Origin: Methanobacteriota archaeon
Lineage (GTDB): Archaea; Thermoplasmatota; Poseidoniia; Poseidoniales; Poseidoniaceae
Length of the DNA: 39,299 nucleotides
Reading direction: 5' to 3'
Assembly (NCBI GenBank): GCA_002699425.1
Contig: PABV01000053.1
Location: forward strand, 3,977-43,275
How positions within the stretch are numbered: position 1 is the first letter of the stretch; the number at the start of each line of letters is the position of its first letter. The notes under the pieces are model-generated. The model was not told the origin of the DNA. It saw only the letters and a list, made by a program, of their open reading frames with translations, and searched no databases. The position numbers and the translations under genes were made by a program. Shown here in pieces: positions 7,772-22,721 of this stretch.

Positions 7772-9838
7772 TTAGGTCTTTGAATCATGTCCCTCGACGT
7801 TTTTCAATCCGTCTCTTACACTCACGGCAATTCCTTTCTTAAACAAAGTCATCTCATTCGCTTCGCACTCGGCTTTCCCAACTGCTATGTATTCTCCATC
7901 TTGATTGTAGATTAAGCATATGTCACCTTGCTTAAGATTCTCATCGACGGACAAAACAAATCCGTGGAATACGTTTCGGCCTTTCCTTACAAATGGTTCA
8001 GCATGTTCATCTACGACCACACTGGGTGGGCGAGAGGATTGCTTTGAGAGCCAAAGGCCTCCTTGGGCAGTTGCAGCCAGGCTCCCATTGGTCAAACTAG
8101 GGCTGAAAAGGTGATTGCCCTTGCTATCAAGTACATTCCGTGCGCGCCCTGTGCCGCCTACAATGAAAGATACCTCAGCAACTAAATCAGCAGATTCTTC
8201 TGGATCAACGCCAAAGAATAATTGCATTTTGTCAGATAATTGCTCTCTAAACAACACATCTCTGTGTGCGGTTTTTTGGATTTCTTCACCAAGATAATCG
8301 CAGATATTTTCTAACAAATTCTCTTGGTTTATATCAGCAATCAAATGATTTTTGGGTTTAATATTCAGCGCACTTAATTGTTGTTCTATAAATCCTTTTT
8401 TTGGCGGATTAGTCCATATTTCCTCTTCTGCTTCAATGTGGGCAAATGGATGGAGGTCCTCTATACCGTAGGGAATGAGTCCAATTGGTGTCGTTATGAG
8501 TATTGGTACTTTTTCATTCATCGCTCTGATCTTCAAAATTAATTCATTTAACTTCATTCGCCATGGGCTGGGTGTGCCGTAAAAAATAATTAATTTTTCA
8601 GGATCATTATGTCCCCACTTGTGGTGTAAATTTTGTAATGACTTGATAATTCGTGGATCTGATTTCTCACTTCCATGTTCATATATCCATCCGCCTTGGT
8701 TGGAGATATTTTGGCTTGAAATAATCCACTGGTTTTGTTGATTCTCGATAAAATCCCATGCTTTTTTCAAGGCGGGATGTTGCTTGCTACGCCTTTTTGC
8801 AAGGTCCCATATACGGCCATCTCTAACAGCCTGGCGACAGCGAGATAATTCAGCCAGCGTGACTTCAAGATTAAATCTAGCAAGAATTTCAGTTTTCTTT
8901 TCTTTACTCATTTCTCTGACTTGTTTGGGTGTTATTGATTGTACGCAAGGTACGGTGATCGGCCATTCTGTCATTCGATCAAACTTCTCAGTACCCCAAG
9001 GACAAAGTAGCCGATCATCGCGCGCAAATAGTGCATAAGCTGCGCTGTCAAACAAATCAATACCCAGAGCAATCGCCATTGGAAAAAGCATTGGATGACC
9101 ACACCCGAACAGATGGGTTGGACGGTGAGCAGGGAGATTTGGTTTAGTTTCGAGAATAATTTCTGCAAGTTTGTCATACATGTGTTGTTCCATGATTGGA
9201 ACAATGCCGCCAATCGGATGTATCGTGAATGGTTCTTCACCCATGAGTAAGGCGCTTTTTCTCCTTAAATCTGGAAAAATCCCTCCTTGAATAGGTCCAT
9301 TGAGCATCATGCCTTTGGCTGTTTCGATGGAAGTTTTTGCTCGATTGTATGTTTCCTCGACAGCGTAATTCACCTCATTTTCATCCATGTCTGGTCGAGA
9401 AAAAACATCTAGCATTGTACCTATGTCAACGCGAATGTTTCTTTGGAAAGAAATGATTTCTTCGACTCCGACTTCAACATCACCATATATGTAGGATTGA
9501 AATGTACCACTATCGGTCATGATGGCTCCAGGATAATCCAAGAGAGCATGGACTCCATCAGCGAGCGCCTTTGTCTTAAGATGTTCATGTTTCCAAATAA
9601 CGTAGGAGTTTGTAATGAGCGCTTCGATACCATAATCTGTCCACATATCTCTGGGCGTAATGGTTTGGATGTTAGGGTTAATGACTGGAAGCAAGCATGG
9701 TGTGTTGACAATGCCGTGTTGAGTATGAATTTTCCCTAGTCTTGCTCTCCCATCTCTGCAGGTAATTTCAAAGACACCAGTATCATTCTCTTTACATGGT
9801 TTTGGGGCAGGCCGCTCATCGATATTCCATGCAGCCAT
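7772..9838 (-). CDS. tgtA: Archaeosine-type tRNA-guanine transglycosylase, PUA-containing, zinc site lost
   Basis: Replaces guanine-15 in the D-loop of archaeal tRNA with preQ0, the first tRNA step to archaeosine. 688 residues: catalytic TIM barrel (about 20-360), C1/C2 domains, and a PUA domain near 595-680. The nucleophile region MTDSGTFQ (Asp109) and the second aspartate in DLFDSAAYAL (Asp264) are present. Where archaeal enzymes normally carry CxCxxC, this protein has only VPCVQSITP (Cys298). The later zinc histidine in the usual HNL motif is Phe322 (RFNLEV). Start at 9838 has AGAGGA in front; an earlier ATG at 9916 overlaps the NifU-like gene. It sits between nifU-like and ABC genes on one strand. 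Identity is firm; activity without zinc is untested. Confidence 0.9.
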   Translation of the reverse strand: MAAWNIDERPAPKPCKENDTGVFEITCRDGRARLGKIHTQHGIVNTPCLLPVINPNIQTITPRDMWTDYGIEALITNSYVIWKHEHLKTKALADGVHALLDYPGAIMTDSGTFQSYIYGDVEVGVEEIISFQRNIRVDIGTMLDVFSRPDMDENEVNYAVEETYNRAKTSIETAKGMMLNGPIQGGIFPDLRRKSALLMGEEPFTIHPIGGIVPIMEQHMYDKLAEIILETKPNLPAHRPTHLFGCGHPMLFPMAIALGIDLFDSAAYALFARDDRLLCPWGTEKFDRMTEWPITVPCVQSITPKQVREMSKEKKTEILARFNLEVTLAELSRCRQAVRDGRIWDLAKRRSKQHPALKKAWDFIENQQNQWIISSQNISNQGGWIYEHGSEKSDPRIIKSLQNLHHKWGHNDPEKLIIFYGTPSPWRMKLNELILKIRAMNEKVPILITTPIGLIPYGIEDLHPFAHIEAEEEIWTNPPKKGFIEQQLSALNIKPKNHLIADINQENLLENICDYLGEEIQKTAHRDVLFREQLSDKMQLFFGVDPEESADLVAEVSFIVGGTGRARNVLDSKGNHLFSPSLTNGSLAATAQGGLWLSKQSSRPPSVVVDEHAEPFVRKGRNVFHGFVLSVDENLKQGDICLIYNQDGEYIAVGKAECEANEMTLFKKGIAVSVRDGLKNVEGHDSKT

Positions 9839-9875
9839 GTTTCTTCCTCTGGTGATTTCTTCTTGAGGATACTTG

Positions 9876-10313
9876 TCAAACGAATTCAACTTGACTGTGT
9901 TTTTCAACAAATTCACGACTTATCTCATCAAATGTCTGGAGCAATTTCTTAGAGAAACGGATGCGAGAGATTTGACTGTCATTTTCTAAATCAGATTTGA
10001 TGCCTTCTAAAGTGCCTGGAGCTGCTCCACAGGCCAAGCAAGCACCTGAAAGGTCTAACACAAGGTCAAGTCCATCATCAGTTTTTATTCGTGAAACGAT
10101 TTCGATACCGCCGCCGTGTCCATCAAGCGCAAGACGAACATCTCCAAGTCTTGCCATGAGTGCGGGAACCAAATCTTCAAGGTCGTGAAGAGAAAGATTC
10201 CGGAGACGATCCTCCTCGGCCGGATCGATATATTCTTGACGTCGACGTTCAGATTCCTGATTCATTGCCGCTTTGGCTTCCAAACGATATCTGGCAACAA
10301 GGTCGTCATCCAT
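9876..10313 (-). CDS. NifU C-terminal-like Fe-S protein
   Basis: A 145-residue protein with a charged helical N-terminus (1-55) and a NifU C-terminal (Nfu) domain. Seen: LDGHGGGIEIV (residues 63-73) and LSGACLACGAAPGTLEGI (88-105), whose CxxC (Cys92, Cys95) binds or passes an iron-sulfur cluster in Nfu proteins. It is transcribed divergently from sufC across an 86-base gap, which fits a role as a cluster carrier working with the SUF scaffold. The usual family sequence has CPS after the second cysteine; here it is CGA, still within family variation. No SD precedes the ATG, and an AT-rich box lies about 25 bases upstream, so it may be leaderless. The tgtA gene follows after 37 bases. Confidence 0.8.
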   Translation of the reverse strand: MDDDLVARYRLEAKAAMNQESERRRQEYIDPAEEDRLRNLSLHDLEDLVPALMARLGDVRLALDGHGGGIEIVSRIKTDDGLDLVLDLSGACLACGAAPGTLEGIKSDLENDSQISRIRFSKKLLQTFDEISREFVEKHSQVEFV

Positions 10314-10399
10314 GTAGTGGGCTATAGCGGCAATAATTCAAGTCTTGCCCTCCAGTGGACAATACGGTGATTCATAAGGGTGAATCGCGTCGGAATGTC
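10314..10399. promoter_or_regulatory. Divergent promoter region, nifU-like / sufC
   Basis: The 86 bases between two divergent Fe-S genes. On the plus strand TTCATAAG (10371-10378) lies 26 bases before the sufC ATG. On the minus strand the complement of 10331-10340 reads TGAATTATTG, centred about 25 bases before the nifU-like ATG. Neither gene has an SD. Both spacings suit archaeal box A with leaderless transcripts. The boxes are imperfect, so this is a reasoned candidate. No clear operator palindrome was seen. Confidence 0.35.
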
Positions 10400-11158
10400 A
10401 TGGCCGATATAGTGCTTGAAATCAACGACCTGCACGTGAGTGTCGATGATGTTGAGATTATTCAAGGGCTCAACATAACCATTAACAAGGGAGAAATTCA
10501 TGCCATTATGGGAAGAAATGGTTCAGGAAAATCGACTCTTGCAAACGTACTCATGGGACATCCTGATTACAAAGTCACCTCCGGTTCGATTATTTACCAA
10601 GGAAACTCTCTGCTTGAAATGGAAGTATACGAGCGAGCGAGATCTGGGATCTTCTTATCCTTCCAGTATCCTAGCGTAATTCCAGGAGTACAGGTTGGTA
10701 CATTTTTGAGGAAATCTATCAACAGTATCAAAGGTGAGCATGCGCCTAGTGCACGTGAATTTCGAAAACTATTGTCCGAAAAAATGGTAATGCTTGACAT
10801 GAATAAATCCTTTCTTTCACGATATGTCAACGACGGGTTTTCCGGTGGCGAAAAAAAGCGGTTAGAAATATTGCAATTACTGCTTCTAGAACCTTCTCTT
10901 ATCATCCTTGATGAAACCGACTCTGGATTGGATATTGATGCCCTGAGAGTAGTTTCAGAAGGGATTAACAGCGTGCTCGAATATTCAGCATGTCTGGTAA
11001 TTACTCATTACCAGCGTCTACTCGATTACGTAAAACCAGATCATGTTCATGCAATGATTGGTGGTTGTTTTGTCAAATCTGGTGGTCCAGAACTTGCTCA
11101 CAAGTTAGAAGCCAATGGTTATGATTGGCTTGAACCAAAGACGGAGGTAAAGACATGA
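10400..11158 (+). CDS. sufC: Fe-S cluster assembly ATPase SufC
   Basis: ATPase of the SufBCD scaffold complex that builds iron-sulfur clusters in the cytoplasm. 252 residues from the ATG at 10400; an upstream ATG at 10355 adds a tail outside the family and was rejected. Seen: Walker [11 protein letters not shown]-loop in FLSFQYP, SufC-type signature [13 protein letters not shown], Walker [13 protein letters not shown] and the H-switch in ITHYQRLL. The Glu-Thr after Walker B (DETDSGLD) separates SufC from transport ATPases, which have DEP. The ATG has no SD and a TATA-like box sits at -26, so it may be leaderless. It overlaps sufB by ATGA. Confidence 0.95.
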
Positions 11159-12555
11159 CTCAAGATGATGTAATTGGTGACTACAAGTATGGTTTTCATG
11201 ATTCAGAGACTGCCACTATACGATTCGATAAAGGATTGTCTGAACAAGTTGTAAGAGACATATCTGCTCTTAAGGATGAGCCCGAATGGATGACTGATAT
11301 AAGGCTCAAAGCCTACAAGCATTTCATCGAGAGGCCAATGCCTGATTGGGGAAACACAGGTATGCTAAAATCGATTGATTTTGATGCAGTGACCTATTTC
11401 TTGCGTTCGAGTGAAGGGACAGAAGGAGACTGGGATGATGTTCCAGAGGAAATCAAACGAACCTTCGACCGGTTAGGAATTCCTGAGGCTGAACAAAAAT
11501 GGTTGGGTGGAGTTACTGCACAATATGAATCAGAAGCTGTTTACCATTCCATACGCGAAGACCTCACATCCCAAGGAGTCCTCTTCTTTGACATGGACTC
11601 TGGTCTCAAAGAGCATCCTGAGATTATCAAGAAATATTTTGGAGCAGTAGTGCCTTATTCGGACAACAAGTTTGCAGCACTCAACACAGCGGTTTGGTCA
11701 GGAGGATCATTCATCTACGTTCCCAAAGATGTTCATGTAACCATGCCAGTCCAGGCATATTTCAGAATTAACGCCAAAAACATGGGTCAATTTGAACGTA
11801 CTTTGATTATTGCTGACGAGGGTAGTTCCATTCATTACGTAGAAGGATGTACTGCTCCTACTTATGCAACTGAAAGCTTGCACTCAGCAGTAGTGGAATT
11901 AATTGCTCTACCAGGTGCAAAAATCCGCTATTCTACCGTCCAGAATTGGTCGGCGAATGTCTACAATCTGGTAACGAAAAGAGGTATAGCCCACGAGGAT
12001 GCTGTGATCGAATGGGTAGACGGCAACATCGGATCAAAATTGACAATGAAGTATCCCGCTGTAATATTGAAAGGAGAGGGTGCTCATGCCGAAGTGATTT
12101 CCGTGGCTTATGCAGGAAAGGGACAACATCAAGATGCTGGAGCAAAAGTTCATCATTTGGCCTCGAATACGACCTCAAATATTCTGTCAAAATCAATTTC
12201 AAAGTATGGTGGAAGATCGTCTTACAGAGGTTTACTCAAAGTATCTCCAAAGGCAAAGAACTGTCGTTCAAAGGTGGTCTGTGATGCACTCTTGTTGGAT
12301 GAAGATAGTCAATCAGACACCTATCCTACCATGGAAATTGGAAATGCATCATCGGATTTAGAACATGAAGCAAGTGTATCAAAAATTAGTGATGACCAAT
12401 TGTTTTACTTGATGAGTCGAGGCCATTCTGAAGATGAAGCCATGGCAATGATCGTCAATGGATTTTTCGAACCATTCACTCGTGAATTGCCTATGGAGTA
12501 TGCCGTTGAATTAAACCGGCTTCTTGAGATAGAGATGGAGGGTTCCATCGGTTGA
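11155..12555 (+). CDS. sufB: Fe-S cluster scaffold protein SufB
   Basis: Main scaffold subunit on which the cluster is assembled, in complex with SufC and SufD. 466 residues, normal for the family. Seen: the N-terminal SufB domain with [14 protein letters not shown] and [20 protein letters not shown], the beta-helix core, and the C-terminal motif [15 protein letters not shown] followed by the conserved stretch around TYPTMEIGN and the helical end with [20 protein letters not shown]. The cysteine in NCRSKVVC corresponds to the one that takes sulfur in SufB. Translation is coupled on both sides: it starts in the stop of sufC and its own stop overlaps the UUG of sufD. Confidence 0.95.
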
Positions 12556-13568
12556 AATCTCATTCTGAAATTCTCGTACCTCCTCATTCTGAACACCTAT
12601 GGCGCTACACGCCTTGGAAAAGAATGCATCCCACAGAACCTCATGATGTGCCAGTGTCAAGACAAATGAGTATTACCGGGGCGGAACTTATTCCTACAGA
12701 TTTGCCTCCAAGCGAAGAAATATCAAGATCTCTTTTGCATGAAATGAGCAAAGGAGAAGAACTTGTAATCGCAAATGAATGCATGACCATCGATATCAAA
12801 GCCTCTGGCCACATCACCGCTTCATCTTTGAAAGTCGTCGCCAAAGGACACACTCAACTGATGATTCGTTTGGTAGGGGAAGCAGGATGGATTGGCCTTC
12901 GAATTCATGGTGAGGTGCTATCTGGAGGGTCGCTGAGCGTGGGATTTGTAAATCAACTCACCTCTGATTCTATTTTTTTGAGAAGTGAAGATTGGGTTGT
13001 TCATCGAGACGCTCGGATTGAACATGCAACACTATCTGGAGGAGGACTCACCTGTAAATCTGATGTTCGAGTTAATTTAGTCGATAAGGGTGCAGAGTGT
13101 GCTGTGGCTGCTGCTGTCTATGGTAGTGAAAAAAGACATGATGACCATCACTTTGAAATTCATCATGCTTCTCCAAATACAAATTCTACGTTAATCTCTC
13201 ATGCCGCATGCGATGATTCATCCAGAAGTATTGGGACTGGAATGCTTACAATAGACGAGCAATGTCACCAAAGCGAGGCGAATCAAGTTTTCCGAAACCT
13301 TCTCCTCTCTGAAAAAGCTCGCGCAGAATCCATTCCAGAACTAGAGGTCCTTGCAGATGATGTAAAAGCAGGACATGGGGCTGCATCAGCACCAGTTAAC
13401 TCTTCTCAAATACACTACTTGATGAGTCGAGGGATGAATCGCGAAGAAGCAGTTGGTGTTATTGCAGAGGGTTTTCTTATCGATGCATTTAGAGAAATAC
13501 GTAACAAAGATGTCATTGCTTTTTTGCGAGATGAGTTAACCCTGCACTTACAATGCCTGGTGATTTAA
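12552..13568 (+). CDS. sufD: Fe-S cluster assembly protein SufD (UUG start)
   Basis: Partner subunit of SufB in the SufBCD complex. 338 residues. The start is read as TTG at 12552-12554, overlapping the sufB stop as TTGA, with GGAGG about 9 bases before it. The next ATG lies 23 codons in and would cut off the conserved SufD entry motif LWRYTPWKR. The middle is the degenerate beta-helix typical of SufD. The C-terminus repeats the family ending, [23 protein letters not shown]. The core is more divergent than SufB, as is usual. Its stop overlaps the sufS start as TAATG. Confidence 0.92.
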
Positions 13569-14764
13569 TGCCTATCAGAGATGATTTCCCTATTCTTCAG
13601 CGAGAAGTGAATGGACGTTCACTGATCTATTTTGACAATGCTGCAACAACGCAGAAACCAAAGGTAGTCATCGATGCGATGACTGACTATTATCAATCTA
13701 TGAATGCCAATGTTCACCGAGCAGTTCATACTCTTGCGGGGGAGTCAACAGAAGCATATGAATCCTGTAGAAGTAACCTTCGCGAATGGTTCAGTGCGGA
13801 AAAAGTCATATTCACAAGTGGTACCACTGAAGCGATTAATTTAGCAGCTCATGCATGGGGGAAACATAACTTGAACAGAGGAGATGTCATTCTACTTACG
13901 GAAATGGAGCATCACAGTGATATTGTTCCTTGGCAGATGTTATCTCGTGAAATCGGTGTAGAATTGCGTTATGTTCCTGTTGCTGAAGATCATACACTTG
14001 ATATGGAATTACTAAAAGCATCGATGGAAGATGTAAAACTTGTTTGCTTCGTTCATACAAGTAATGTGCTGGGAGCCAGAAACCCCGTAGAGGAAATCGT
14101 AGGTATATCCAAAAAACACGGTGCAAAAGTTCTCATCGATGCAGCACAAGCAGTTCCTCACGATAGGATTGATTTTGCATCAATGAATATTGATTTCCTT
14201 GCATGCAGCGCGCATAAAATGTGTGGTCCAACTGGAATCGGTTGTTTATTGGTTTCACCAGAAACGTTTCTTGAAATGGAACCTTTTATGGGAGGAGGTG
14301 ATATGATTGAAACCGTTACTTTAGAAGGCTCAACCTATCAAAAAAATGAGCATAAATTTGAGGCTGGGACCCCCAAAATTGCAGAGGCAGTTGGATGGGA
14401 TGCAGCGATAAATTGGCTTTCCAAGATTGATTTGCAATCTGAACACGAAAGGTTACTCGAAATGGCCAGATACACCGCAAATCGATTGAGATCAATACCC
14501 GGTATGACCGTTTTTGGTCAGCACGCCGATGGTGATTCTGCCGTAGTTTCGTTCATCCATGACAAAGTACATCCAGAGGATATGGCAAGATTGCTTGATG
14601 CTCGCGGCATCGCATTGAGAACTGGACATCATTGTGCGCAACCGCTCATGGAAAAACTTGGAGTGAGCGGGACTTTACGTGCCTCATTTTATCTTTACAA
14701 TACGCAAGAGGAAGTGGAAACGATGTTATCGACCATCGAAAACATTGTGGAGAGGTTCTCATGA
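13568..14764 (+). CDS. sufS: Cysteine desulfurase SufS
   Basis: PLP enzyme that removes sulfur from cysteine and holds it as a persulfide for SufE. 398 residues. Seen: the N-terminal YFDNAATTQKP, LTEMEHHSDIVPWQ, the DAAQAVPH aspartate motif, PLP lysine in CSAHKMCGPTGIG (about residue 219), and the active-site cysteine in RTGHHCAQPL. The long loop and RxGHHCAQP are diagnostic of group II desulfurases (SufS rather than IscS). I chose the ATG at 13568, overlapping the sufD stop and with GGTGAT a few bases before, over the one at 13553, which has no SD. It overlaps sufE by ATGA. Confidence 0.95.
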   Translation: MPIRDDFPILQREVNGRSLIYFDNAATTQKPKVVIDAMTDYYQSMNANVHRAVHTLAGESTEAYESCRSNLREWFSAEKVIFTSGTTEAINLAAHAWGKHNLNRGDVILLTEMEHHSDIVPWQMLSREIGVELRYVPVAEDHTLDMELLKASMEDVKLVCFVHTSNVLGARNPVEEIVGISKKHGAKVLIDAAQAVPHDRIDFASMNIDFLACSAHKMCGPTGIGCLLVSPETFLEMEPFMGGGDMIETVTLEGSTYQKNEHKFEAGTPKIAEAVGWDAAINWLSKIDLQSEHERLLEMARYTANRLRSIPGMTVFGQHADGDSAVVSFIHDKVHPEDMARLLDARGIALRTGHHCAQPLMEKLGVSGTLRASFYLYNTQEEVETMLSTIENIVERFS

Positions 14765-15171
14765 GTGACACCTCCTCTTTACAAGAATTAATCGAAGAAT
14801 TCTCTGAGATAGATGATGCAATGGAGCGTCTTGAGTTGCTCATGGATTTCGCAGATGAAGTTGATGAGTTGACTCTAGATGAATGGAGCGATGAAAATCT
14901 TGTTAGAGGCTGCCAATCCCAAGCACATATTGTTGTTGAAAACCGGGACGGTTTGGTTTATACAAGGGCTGCAGCGGATGCAAAGATAGTACAGGGTTTA
15001 ATGGGAGTATTATCGGTTGTTATGAATGGAAAGTCTCCCTCATTTGTCCTTTCGTTAACTCCTCAGTTTGCTATTGATATGGGAATACTTAATTCACTGA
15101 CCCCGAGTCGATCAAATGGATTTCGTACAATGTTCGATATGATTCAATCAGAGGTAAAGGAGAAATTTTGA
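14761..15171 (+). CDS. sufE: Sulfur acceptor protein SufE
   Basis: Takes the persulfide from SufS and passes it to SufB. 136 residues, the family's usual length. Seen: the helical start (LQELIEEFSEIDDAMERLELLMDF), then NLVRGCQSQAHI with the sulfur-accepting cysteine at residue 51, the same number as in the well-studied enterobacterial protein, and the QGLMGVLSVVMNGKS helix. The start overlaps the sufS stop by ATGA, so the two partner proteins are translationally linked. Confidence 0.92.
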   Translation: MSDTSSLQELIEEFSEIDDAMERLELLMDFADEVDELTLDEWSDENLVRGCQSQAHIVVENRDGLVYTRAAADAKIVQGLMGVLSVVMNGKSPSFVLSLTPQFAIDMGILNSLTPSRSNGFRTMFDMIQSEVKEKF

Positions 15172-15480
15172 TGTTAGATCAGGAAATGATAATGCAAAAA
15201 CTATCAGAGGTAGAAGATCCTGAATTGAAAATATCAATCGTAGACTTAGGGCTGGTCTATGGTGTACGAATCGTCGAAAAAGAAGACCAGATGCATGCTG
15301 AGATAGATATTACATTAACAAGCCCAGGATGCCCTTCAGCCCCAGAAATAATGGCAGCCACACATCGAGCGGCTCTCAAAACTGACGGATTAGACACTGT
15401 TCATGTAAATTTAGTCTGGTCACCGAGATGGGACCCTCGTGTTCATGCTACTGAGGATGCGAGAATGGATATGGGTATCT

Positions 15481-15488
<8 letters not shown>
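15171..15488 (+). CDS. MIP18/DUF59-family Fe-S maturation protein (SufT-like)
   Basis: A 105-residue MIP18-family (DUF59) protein, as found at the end of many suf operons under the name SufT or PaaD-like. Seen: VEDPELKISIVDLGLVYGV (residues 14-32) and ITLTSPGCPSAPEIM, which holds the conserved cysteine of the family, followed by the VNLVWSPRWDP ending. It probably helps deliver clusters to target proteins. I chose ATG 15171 (a TTG lies one codon earlier) because GGAG sits about 8 bases before it; its A is the last base of the sufE stop. It ends 9 bases before the groEL stop on the other strand. Confidence 0.85.
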
Positions 15489-20118: not shown

Positions 20119-20131
20119 ATGACACCTAATC

Positions 20132-20138
20132 TTTATGT
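20132..20138 (+). promoter_or_regulatory. TATA-like box (box A) of zinc-ribbon gene
   Basis: TTTATGT centred about 26 bases before the ATG at 20161, in an AT-rich stretch. The ATG has no SD, so a leaderless transcript starting at or next to it is likely. An in-frame ATG at 20119 lies upstream of the box and was rejected. Confidence 0.5.
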
Positions 20139-20160
20139 CAAATCATATTTTACAATTATC

Positions 20161-20628
20161 ATGGCAATCATCCGATGTCCGCATTGCGATGATGAAATCA
20201 GCCTTGATGATGATCAGGCTGGTCGTTTTAACTGCCCTCATTGTTCGAAGGAGTTTGAATGGAATACCAATCCGATTGCACCACCCACAACTAAGACTGT
20301 TATTTTCGTTGCACTTGCACTGATTTGTGCATTTTCTACTATTTCAATGGCAATATCCAATGATAGTTCTGAGTCATGTGATACATCACAAAATCCAGAT
20401 TGTCAAAATTCTGAAGGAGGTAGCGATGATTTATTTGGCGGTGGATGGGATGAGGTCATAGAGGATGTATTCCTTTTACCGTTCATTATGCTAGGAGCTG
20501 GTGTAGATCTCGTTGGGAAAATAATCGCTTTTTGCTTTTTTTGGTCCTGCTTTTTGATGACTGCTATATTTTCACTACTGGCTGTACGGGGATATTCCAA
20601 AGATAGGGTGTTATTCGATAACGAATAG
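20161..20628 (+). CDS. Small zinc-ribbon membrane protein
   Basis: A 155-residue protein that I do not recognise beyond its parts. Residues 5-26 form a zinc ribbon, with two CPHC knuckles (RCPHCDDEIS and FNCPHCSKEFEW), facing the cytoplasm. A membrane helix spans about 41-62. An outside acidic loop with two cysteines follows (SCDTSQNPDCQNSEGG), then a second hydrophobic region at about 102-139, probably two helices. Such CPxC-ribbon plus membrane proteins are common in marine archaea, and most have no known role. The start at 20161 is set by the TATA spacing and because the zinc ribbon begins at once. Confidence 0.65.
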   Translation: MAIIRCPHCDDEISLDDDQAGRFNCPHCSKEFEWNTNPIAPPTTKTVIFVALALICAFSTISMAISNDSSESCDTSQNPDCQNSEGGSDDLFGGGWDEVIEDVFLLPFIMLGAGVDLVGKIIAFCFFWSCFLMTAIFSLLAVRGYSKDRVLFDNE

Positions 20629-20666: not shown

Positions 20667-22721
20667 TTAGAATTTATCTCTAGACCGGTAATCATCCTCA
20701 AGAGGATCGTCTTTTACTTCCAATTCATTGATGGTATCCTTTAAATTTTCAAGTTGGTTAACTACTGCATCGACTTGTTCTGAAACTTCTGTCAAGTCAG
20801 CACCTTGTGCTATTCCATCAATTCCAAACACATCTGTTGACGAAGTATATACTTTCTTCTTTGCCTTCTTTGGACCAAGTCTGAAAAGGAAAAATGTCAA
20901 CACGAGCATCAACCCTACTCCAATGTAAATTGTTTGGTTAGAGATCCGGCTTTCTGCTTCGGAACCGAGTGCAGTTTCGATTAATTCCCAACGTTCAGGG
21001 TCATCAGGATAAGCATCTGGATTGGTTCCGTTTGGATTATCTCCGTAACCGTCATCATCTGTATCAGACCATTGTGTGGAATCATCAGGAAATGCATCCT
21101 CTGAGTCAACAACATTATCTCCATCAGTATCTTTCTCTAGCACTTTGAATACATTTTGAAAGGTAGCATTATTTCGCTGTCCATCTTTCATGAGCATGTA
21201 AATCTCAACGGAATAATTGCCATGTATAGATCCTGGTGGGATGTCGATACTGATGTTGAATGTGTTTGTACCATCATTTTCCATATACCCCTTTAACCAA
21301 CTTCCTGCATTCCATTCCTTGTCTGCAACTGGACCAATTGTGTTTGACCAAGCCATTCCAGACCAAGTTACAGGTGTAGGTGCCAATTCGTAAGCCTGCC
21401 ATCTGTGATTATTTACAGAATTACCAAGCGCACCTGAGTGAGCCGAACCCCAACAAAATGCTCCACCTGATGCATTGATTGCACAGGTGTGAATATTTTT
21501 CGCTGAAATAGCAATCAAAGGACCGGTTTGTGATTGATTGATGTAAACTGGGTAAAAACTGTTCGTCGTGCTATCATTTCCTAATTGTCCATGAGTATTT
21601 CGTCCCCAGCACATCCCTGTGCCGTTTTCTAACAGAGCGCAAGTGTGGTCATATCCAGTTGAAACTTGTGTGAAACTCTTGTTTTGAGTTGTGTTAATGT
21701 ATACTGGGAGGCTATTTGCTAATGAAGAAAAGCTAGAACCTAATTTTCCGTAATTATTGTATCCCCAACACACTATGCTTCCATTATCTAAGACAGCACA
21801 TGCATGATTTTGACCCGCATCGATGTCCACAGCAATTCTTCCGGATGGAAGCGAAACGTAACTTTGTGGAGTATTCTGATCCCCTGTGGTATCTGCAGAG
21901 TCTCCCAATTGATTGTTTCCATCATGTCCCCAACATGATATTGCTCCATTTCCAAGCAATGCACACGTGAACCTTTCTCCTGCCGCGATTTCAGTAGCAA
22001 AGTCATTTTCTCCAGGAAGTTCGACTTGAACTGGAGCATATTGGTCTGCATTCCCATCTCCAGAACCGAGATTTCCATTCCATGCTCTTCCCCAACACCA
22101 TACTGTATTATCTGAATCGATTGCACAACTATGGTAAAGTCCCATGCTTAGTTTCTCGATGGTTGTATTTTGGTTGAATGTGACAGGGGTTGAGGGTAAT
22201 TTCTCAGTGTTAGTGCTTCCAATGCCATTTTTACCATTGTTATTGTTACCCCAGCAGTAGAGTTTGCCTGAATCGGTAATTCCACAGGTATTTTCGTGAC
22301 CAGCATGAATTGATTTGAAGGATTCTCCCTCTGGATTTGTCACAAAACTAGTTGGTTTTGATACTGCATTGTCTTCTCCTCCGTCGCCAAGTCTTCCATC
22401 ACCATCAGACCCCCAACACATGGTAGAGGCATTATCGAGGATTGCGCAAGTATGAATATTCCCATTTGAAATCAAACCTTTACCGGGAACAGACTTAACT
22501 TCTTGATTGAATCCATCCGCAACTAAACGATATCGGATTTGATTTACTTGGGTGAAATTTAGGTTAGTAATTTCACAATCTACACTAGCACCTTCAGAAA
22601 CGTTTTGCTTGGAACACACGAATTCATCTTCAGAGAATTCGTGATTTACGTCAGAAGCCTGAAATGTGTTTAAACTACTCGTACAAAAGAGAAGTACAAG
22701 CACAATAGTAGCCTTTCTCAT
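20667..22721 (-). CDS. Secreted, membrane-anchored seven-blade RCC1-repeat protein
   Basis: A 684-residue surface protein. A signal peptide lies at residues 1-22 and then an N-terminal strand domain with two cysteines. Seven RCC1-like repeats follow (about 88-445), each with the pattern xTCAxxxxGxxxCWGxxxxGxLG. Then come a beta domain (450-530), a Ca-binding-type linker DTDGDNVVDSEDAFPDD with a second copy, a membrane helix (about 597-616) and an inside tail ending in a coiled coil. Seven repeats close one propeller. The paired cysteines in each blade probably form disulfides outside the cell. The substrate is unknown; such proteins usually bind proteins or sugars. A strong TATA box precedes it. 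It ends 38 bases from the converging zinc-ribbon gene. Confidence 0.85.
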   Translation of the reverse strand: MRKATIVLVLLFCTSSLNTFQASDVNHEFSEDEFVCSKQNVSEGASVDCEITNLNFTQVNQIRYRLVADGFNQEVKSVPGKGLISNGNIHTCAILDNASTMCWGSDGDGRLGDGGEDNAVSKPTSFVTNPEGESFKSIHAGHENTCGITDSGKLYCWGNNNNGKNGIGSTNTEKLPSTPVTFNQNTTIEKLSMGLYHSCAIDSDNTVWCWGRAWNGNLGSGDGNADQYAPVQVELPGENDFATEIAAGERFTCALLGNGAISCWGHDGNNQLGDSADTTGDQNTPQSYVSLPSGRIAVDIDAGQNHACAVLDNGSIVCWGYNNYGKLGSSFSSLANSLPVYINTTQNKSFTQVSTGYDHTCALLENGTGMCWGRNTHGQLGNDSTTNSFYPVYINQSQTGPLIAISAKNIHTCAINASGGAFCWGSAHSGALGNSVNNHRWQAYELAPTPVTWSGMAWSNTIGPVADKEWNAGSWLKGYMENDGTNTFNISIDIPPGSIHGNYSVEIYMLMKDGQRNNATFQNVFKVLEKDTDGDNVVDSEDAFPDDSTQWSDTDDDGYGDNPNGTNPDAYPDDPERWELIETALGSEAESRISNQTIYIGVGLMLVLTFFLFRLGPKKAKKKVYTSSTDVFGIDGIAQGADLTEVSEQVDAVVNQLENLKDTINELEVKDDPLEDDYRSRDKF

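Follow-up and report, generated by a model that had tools for sequence, protein, structure and literature searches.

The archaeon whose DNA is analysed here, a member of Marine Group II (MGII), encodes an archaeosine tRNA-guanine transglycosylase (ArcTGT/TgtA) that lacks the four residues with which its relatives bind structural zinc, which raises the question of whether such an enzyme can work without the metal. Members of the TGT superfamily are described as characteristically carrying a structural zinc, one that even the non-catalytic eukaryotic subunit retains; in the Pyrococcus horikoshii enzyme (PhTGT) this metal fastens a short loop onto a helix. A preliminary description of the window (the whole stretch of 39,299 nucleotides) had proposed that this protein is an archaeosine TGT without its zinc-binding site. 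We examined the protein by alignment, structure modeling, and comparison with its homologues across Thermoplasmatota.

The window encodes a bona fide archaeosine TGT

The ORF is a bona fide archaeosine TGT, in agreement with the earlier assignment: it scored 456.1 bits against TIGR00432 (archaeosine TGT equivalog; cut-off 350) and 241 bits against PF01702 (TGT domain), and an AlphaFold2 model built from a 63-sequence alignment matched P. horikoshii ArcTGT (1iq8_A) with E 1.4e-55 and TMt 0.92. It is not ArcS (TgtA2, archaeosine synthase alpha), since it reached only 98.9 bits against the ArcS model NF040592 (cut-off 440); the ArcS hallmark PCxxxKPYxxSxxH is also absent from it. The ORF comprises 714 codons from a GTG, from which all residue numbers are counted here, and probably 688 from an ATG at nt 9838. 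Alignments of MGII homologues begin near residues 20–39, which fits the ATG start; this start accounts for the 26-residue offset of the earlier numbering. The aspartates previously listed as intact catalytic residues (109 and 264) correspond to D135 and D290, align with PhTGT D95 and D249, and are invariant in all readable homologues; the C-terminal PUA domain is likewise present, as had been stated. Of the 290 Thermoplasmatota ArcTGTs compared, more than 97% share the same residue at each of 52 positions, and the window ArcTGT has all 52.

The genome (assembly of 1.91 Mb, 88% complete) gave just one TGT-family match; its placement in MGII draws on the earlier description, on gene content, and on the relationships set out below. 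Shorter second TGT-like genes (356–398 aa, about 90–110 bits on TIGR00432) were observed in several Thermoplasmatota families and are perhaps bacterial-type Tgt or DpdA-like. Next to the TGT gene, a NifU-like domain gene adjoins it, divergent from an iron–sulphur assembly cluster, and elsewhere the window encodes an RCC1-type repeat protein, here in an archaeon (Table 1).

Table 1 Features of the window and related loci, with positions and strand
Feature	Position	Strand	Basis or remark
ArcTGT/TgtA	7772–9838	−	from probable ATG at residue 27
Longer ORF form of ArcTGT	7772–9916	−	714 codons, open back to GTG at 9916
PUA domain, C-terminal	7808–8026	−	residues 631–703; PF01472 67.2 bits, E 1.2e-18
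Former zinc site	8873–8959	−	I320, V322, V325, F348 at PhTGT C279, C281, C284, H307
I320 (PhTGT C279)	8959–8957	−	alignment to 1iq8
V322 (PhTGT C281)	8953–8951	−	alignment to 1iq8
V325 (PhTGT C284)	8944–8942	−	alignment to 1iq8
F348 (PhTGT H307)	8875–8873	−	alignment to 1iq8
Catalytic Asp D135 (PhTGT D95)	9512–9514	−	aligned; invariant in all readable homologues
Catalytic Asp D290 (PhTGT D249)	9047–9049	−	aligned; invariant in all readable homologues
C41	9794–9796		outside zinc loop; well conserved in MGII ArcTGTs
C360	8837–8839		outside zinc loop; well conserved in MGII ArcTGTs
NifU-like domain gene and SufC-SufB-SufD-SufS-SufE-like + PF01883 cluster	9876–15488		iron–sulphur assembly; NifU-like gene divergent from the cluster
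RCC1-type repeat protein	20667–22721		684 aa; 296 bits to RCC1-like domain
ArcS (L032)	G000:C4:3112-4467		separate gene in the window's genome
Second TGT-like gene	G034:C1:1347911-1348963		
Second TGT-like gene	G314:C6:219650-220639		
Second TGT-like gene	G029:C69:72349-73431		
Second TGT-like gene	G020:C112:29627-30697		

All four zinc-ligand positions are replaced at unchanged spacing

The zinc ligands of PhTGT, which we take to be C279, C281, C284, and H307, are present at those numbers in the PhTGT sequence (1iq8). The zinc loops align as FPCSCPVCSKYTPQELREM (PhTGT) and WPITVPCVQSITPKQVREM (window ArcTGT), with a gap-free match of FPCSCPVCSKYTPQ to WPITVPCVQSITPK, and the segments around the His position read LALHNL and LARFNL, respectively. 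The CxCxxC...H site is thus absent from the window ArcTGT, which has IVVF in place of CCCH, and the proposed loss holds at all four ligand positions; the phenylalanine reported at the His position (Phe322) is F348. The single cysteine noted earlier (298) is C324, the sole Cys in the former site, and aligns with PhTGT V283, a non-ligand position. A gap of about four residues had also been suggested, but none exists: the spacings 249–279, 279–284, and 284–307 measure 30, 5, and 23 residues in PhTGT and in the window ArcTGT alike, and all four further lineages tested (Thermoplasma, Aciduliprofundum-like, second-family MGII, and MGIII) gave the same values. The alignment to 290 homologues likewise ran through the site without gaps. 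The interval originally assigned to the site covered two of the ligand positions and missed the other two, and we therefore re-set it to 8873–8959. Because MGII homologues at 45–68% identity show the same replacement, a frame error, which the preliminary description had raised, is excluded, as is a sequencing error; the stretch is also in frame within the 714-codon ORF. Since the CxCxxC...H site is usual but not universal (the Thermoplasma ArcTGT also has no Cys there), it was not used as defining ArcTGT.

In the AlphaFold2 model, mean pLDDT was 96–98 across residues 311–350, which include the former zinc site. AlphaFold is blind to metals and often gives the metal-bound shape, so this high confidence is permissive, weak evidence for a metal-free fold rather than proof of it.

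If the metal site had been rebuilt, other Cys or His residues of the MGII ArcTGTs would bind zinc at or near the same place, and several cysteines are indeed conserved among the 115 MGII sequences (C41 in 107, C272 in 115, C360 in 113, and C667 in 103). However, none of these lies at the former site, where the only cysteine, C324, is present in 49 of the 115 and off the ligand positions; C360 is 12 residues further along the helix than the former His, C272 falls in the HLFGxGH motif, which precedes the catalytic Asp, and the set shows no newly conserved CxC or CxxC. We regard a rebuilt site as quite unlikely.

Loss of the zinc site is widespread in Thermoplasmatota

To place the replacement in its lineage, the four ligand positions were read in 290 ArcTGTs from Thermoplasmatota, the phylum on which the survey centred; the set contains some genomes twice, from two collections, and is weighted to the window's class and to Thermoplasmatales. 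The Cys triad was absent in 196 of these sequences, 190 of which have residues other than Cys at all three positions, and CCCH (CxCxxC...H) was retained in 94. In MGII, the window's order, the triad was absent in every sequence (115/115), so that the replacement is a lineage trait as had been supposed, and all four ligands were absent in 66; both catalytic Asp residues were retained in all readable members of this set. At the Cys positions the window's own MGII family is mostly hydrophobic, with Tyr or Phe replacing the His; x-Ser-Leu-His predominates in the other MGII family. Of 15 sequences from the remaining family of the class, which we infer to be MGIII, 12 were without the triad, and one genus kept CCCH. 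The triad was also absent from all sampled Thermoplasmatales, among them Thermoplasma sp., Ferroplasma acidarmanus Fer1, and Cuniculiplasma sp., from all sampled DHVE2/Aciduliprofundum-type sequences, from one more family (PSLH/PSFH), and from isolated members of other families. Closely related pairs with and without the site were found in two MGIII genera and in two genera of family f31.

On an ArcTGT tree of 316 columns, from which the zinc columns were left out, the state of the site changed about six times (bootstrap range 5–7), at least three of these on well-supported branches. With CCCH shared by P. horikoshii and the majority of the other Thermoplasmatota families, the changes are most naturally read as losses rather than gains. 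Loss of the zinc site is real, old, and widespread in Thermoplasmatota. In the usual Cys-less pattern the cysteines are gone and His307 stays, paired mostly with Ser/Thr at position 281; in the window's family the His307 equivalent is gone as well. At positions 281 and 307, 118 of the 196 Cys-less sequences pair Ser/Thr with His, 57 pair a hydrophobic with an aromatic residue, and 21 have other combinations; these counts are not phylogenetically corrected, and the classes largely track two clades.

The preliminary description had suggested that the loss could be useful in the zinc-poor surface ocean, and the absence of the triad from all MGII and most MGIII ArcTGTs, both groups being marine, would agree with a zinc-saving adaptation. 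However, lineages of acid and vent settings (Thermoplasma, Ferroplasma acidarmanus, Cuniculiplasma, and DHVE2/Aciduliprofundum) have also fixed the loss, one MGIII genus retains CCCH, and zinc ligands are intact in both of the basic zinc proteins checked in the window's genome, ribosomal protein L37Ae (CPVC...CGKC; CxxC...CxxC) and RNA polymerase subunit N, RpoN (CFSC...CC; CxxC...CC). The CxxC...CxxC ribbon of a window protein at 20119–20628 is also intact. Across the Thermoplasmatota surveyed, scarcity of zinc in the ocean thus fails to account for the loss, and we consider zinc saving very unlikely to have driven it.

ArcS has also lost its CxCxxC motif

The window's genome contains pathway partners of ArcTGT, namely QueC (119 bits) and ArcS, a TGT-related paralogue that acts after ArcTGT and is encoded by a separate gene with the PCxxxKPYxxSxxH hallmark as PCSATKPYSYSPTH. 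With ArcS and QueC present, the ArcTGT gene found in nearly all MGII genomes, and the 52 near-invariant positions, both catalytic Asp residues, and the PUA domain all retained, it is most unlikely that zinc loss signals decay or a change of function in the enzyme, even though its C-terminal half is unusually long compared with PhTGT (714 codons vs 582 residues).

The CxCxxC of ArcS itself has been lost in the window's genome, and both proteins were scored in 76 Thermoplasmatota genomes (ArcS loci L296–L415 plus L032). The ArcS motif was absent in all 36 genomes with a Cys-less ArcTGT and in 18 of the 40 with an intact ArcTGT, the latter spread over several families; both sites were kept in 22 genomes, and no genome had lost that of ArcTGT only. 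No significance can be claimed for this association, since supported branches provide just three independent pairs, but as a lead it suggests that ArcS loses its site before ArcTGT. A stepwise shedding of structural zinc by the entire archaeosine pathway of Thermoplasmatota would extend this order, in which the ArcS CxCxxC is lost first, then the ArcTGT cysteines, and finally the His, the metal being replaced by a Ser281–His307 pair and later by a hydrophobic–aromatic pair; we hold this scenario only tentatively. In the MGIII-type genome G003 (same class, family f3, genus g22, 97% complete), TIGR00432 detected no ArcTGT and the search for ArcS gave just short PUA proteins; this genome has possibly lost the archaeosine pathway. 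No ArcTGT was found in G008, a genome of another family (93% complete).

Comparison with characterized enzymes and proposed mechanism

A review (PMC6313347) cites Kawamura 2016 for the activity of the Thermoplasma acidophilum ArcTGT, and among the papers examined here none linked ArcTGT with zinc loss. The ligand positions read QSYH in a T. acidophilum-type ArcTGT (L197, G099:C1) and in that of a Thermoplasma sp. (L216). The T. acidophilum enzyme is of the same family as the window ArcTGT and has the same domain order, without the three zinc Cys and with the Asp pair kept; unlike the window ArcTGT, with which it shares about 33% identity, it retains His307. It has reportedly complemented a Thermococcus kodakarensis arcTGT deletion. 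It acts on G13 and G15 of tRNA-Leu (review, PMC6313347); expression in E. coli gives insoluble protein (PMC11298593), which may be a sign of lower stability. The window ArcTGT represents a known enzyme in a variant form shared across its lineage, with a single Cys-less relative known from biochemistry. P. horikoshii ArcTGT (1iq8, 1j2b) resembles it in fold (TMt 0.92–0.93), zinc-loop spacing, catalytic residues, and PUA domain, but holds zinc by the four ligands that the window ArcTGT lacks. Bacterial Tgt and eukaryotic QTRT1/QTRT2 share the TIM barrel of the TGT superfamily and the inserted zinc subdomain, but have no PUA domain and serve queuosine rather than archaeosine; the zinc-coordinating residues are reportedly retained in QTRT1 as well as QTRT2 (PMC6165067, PMC4425180).

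Taken together, the window protein is probably a working archaeosine TGT without structural Zn2+, whose loss of the site is ancestral to MGII and one of several independent relaxations. The suggestion that it is active in a zinc-free form is shared here as a prediction from the invariant catalytic residues and the activity published for the Cys-less Thermoplasma enzyme. It would exchange G15 of tRNA for preQ0 via the usual two-aspartate chemistry, and its C1 subdomain would no longer hold structural Zn2+. Where the metal clips the short loop to the helix in other ArcTGTs, the same backbone may here be kept by side-chain packing, with the small hydrophobic residues I320, V322, and V325 at the Cys positions against the aromatic F348 at the His position. 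The gap left by the metal could be closed in two ways, by a polar Ser–His pair or, as in the window's family, by a hydrophobic–aromatic pair, a reading tempered by the fact that the pair classes largely follow two clades.

The zinc site of ArcTGT is a dispensable clamp that has been relaxing repeatedly in Thermoplasmatota, and single losses of metal sites in marine genomes should not be read as zinc economy. The large natural set of ArcTGTs without the site indicates that the structural metal is dispensable, and the close relatives that keep it (in MGIII and the f31 genera) offer matched pairs for the part of the metal in stability and in the choice of target base. Stepwise shedding, if true, would provide a natural series for the replacement of a structural metal by packing.
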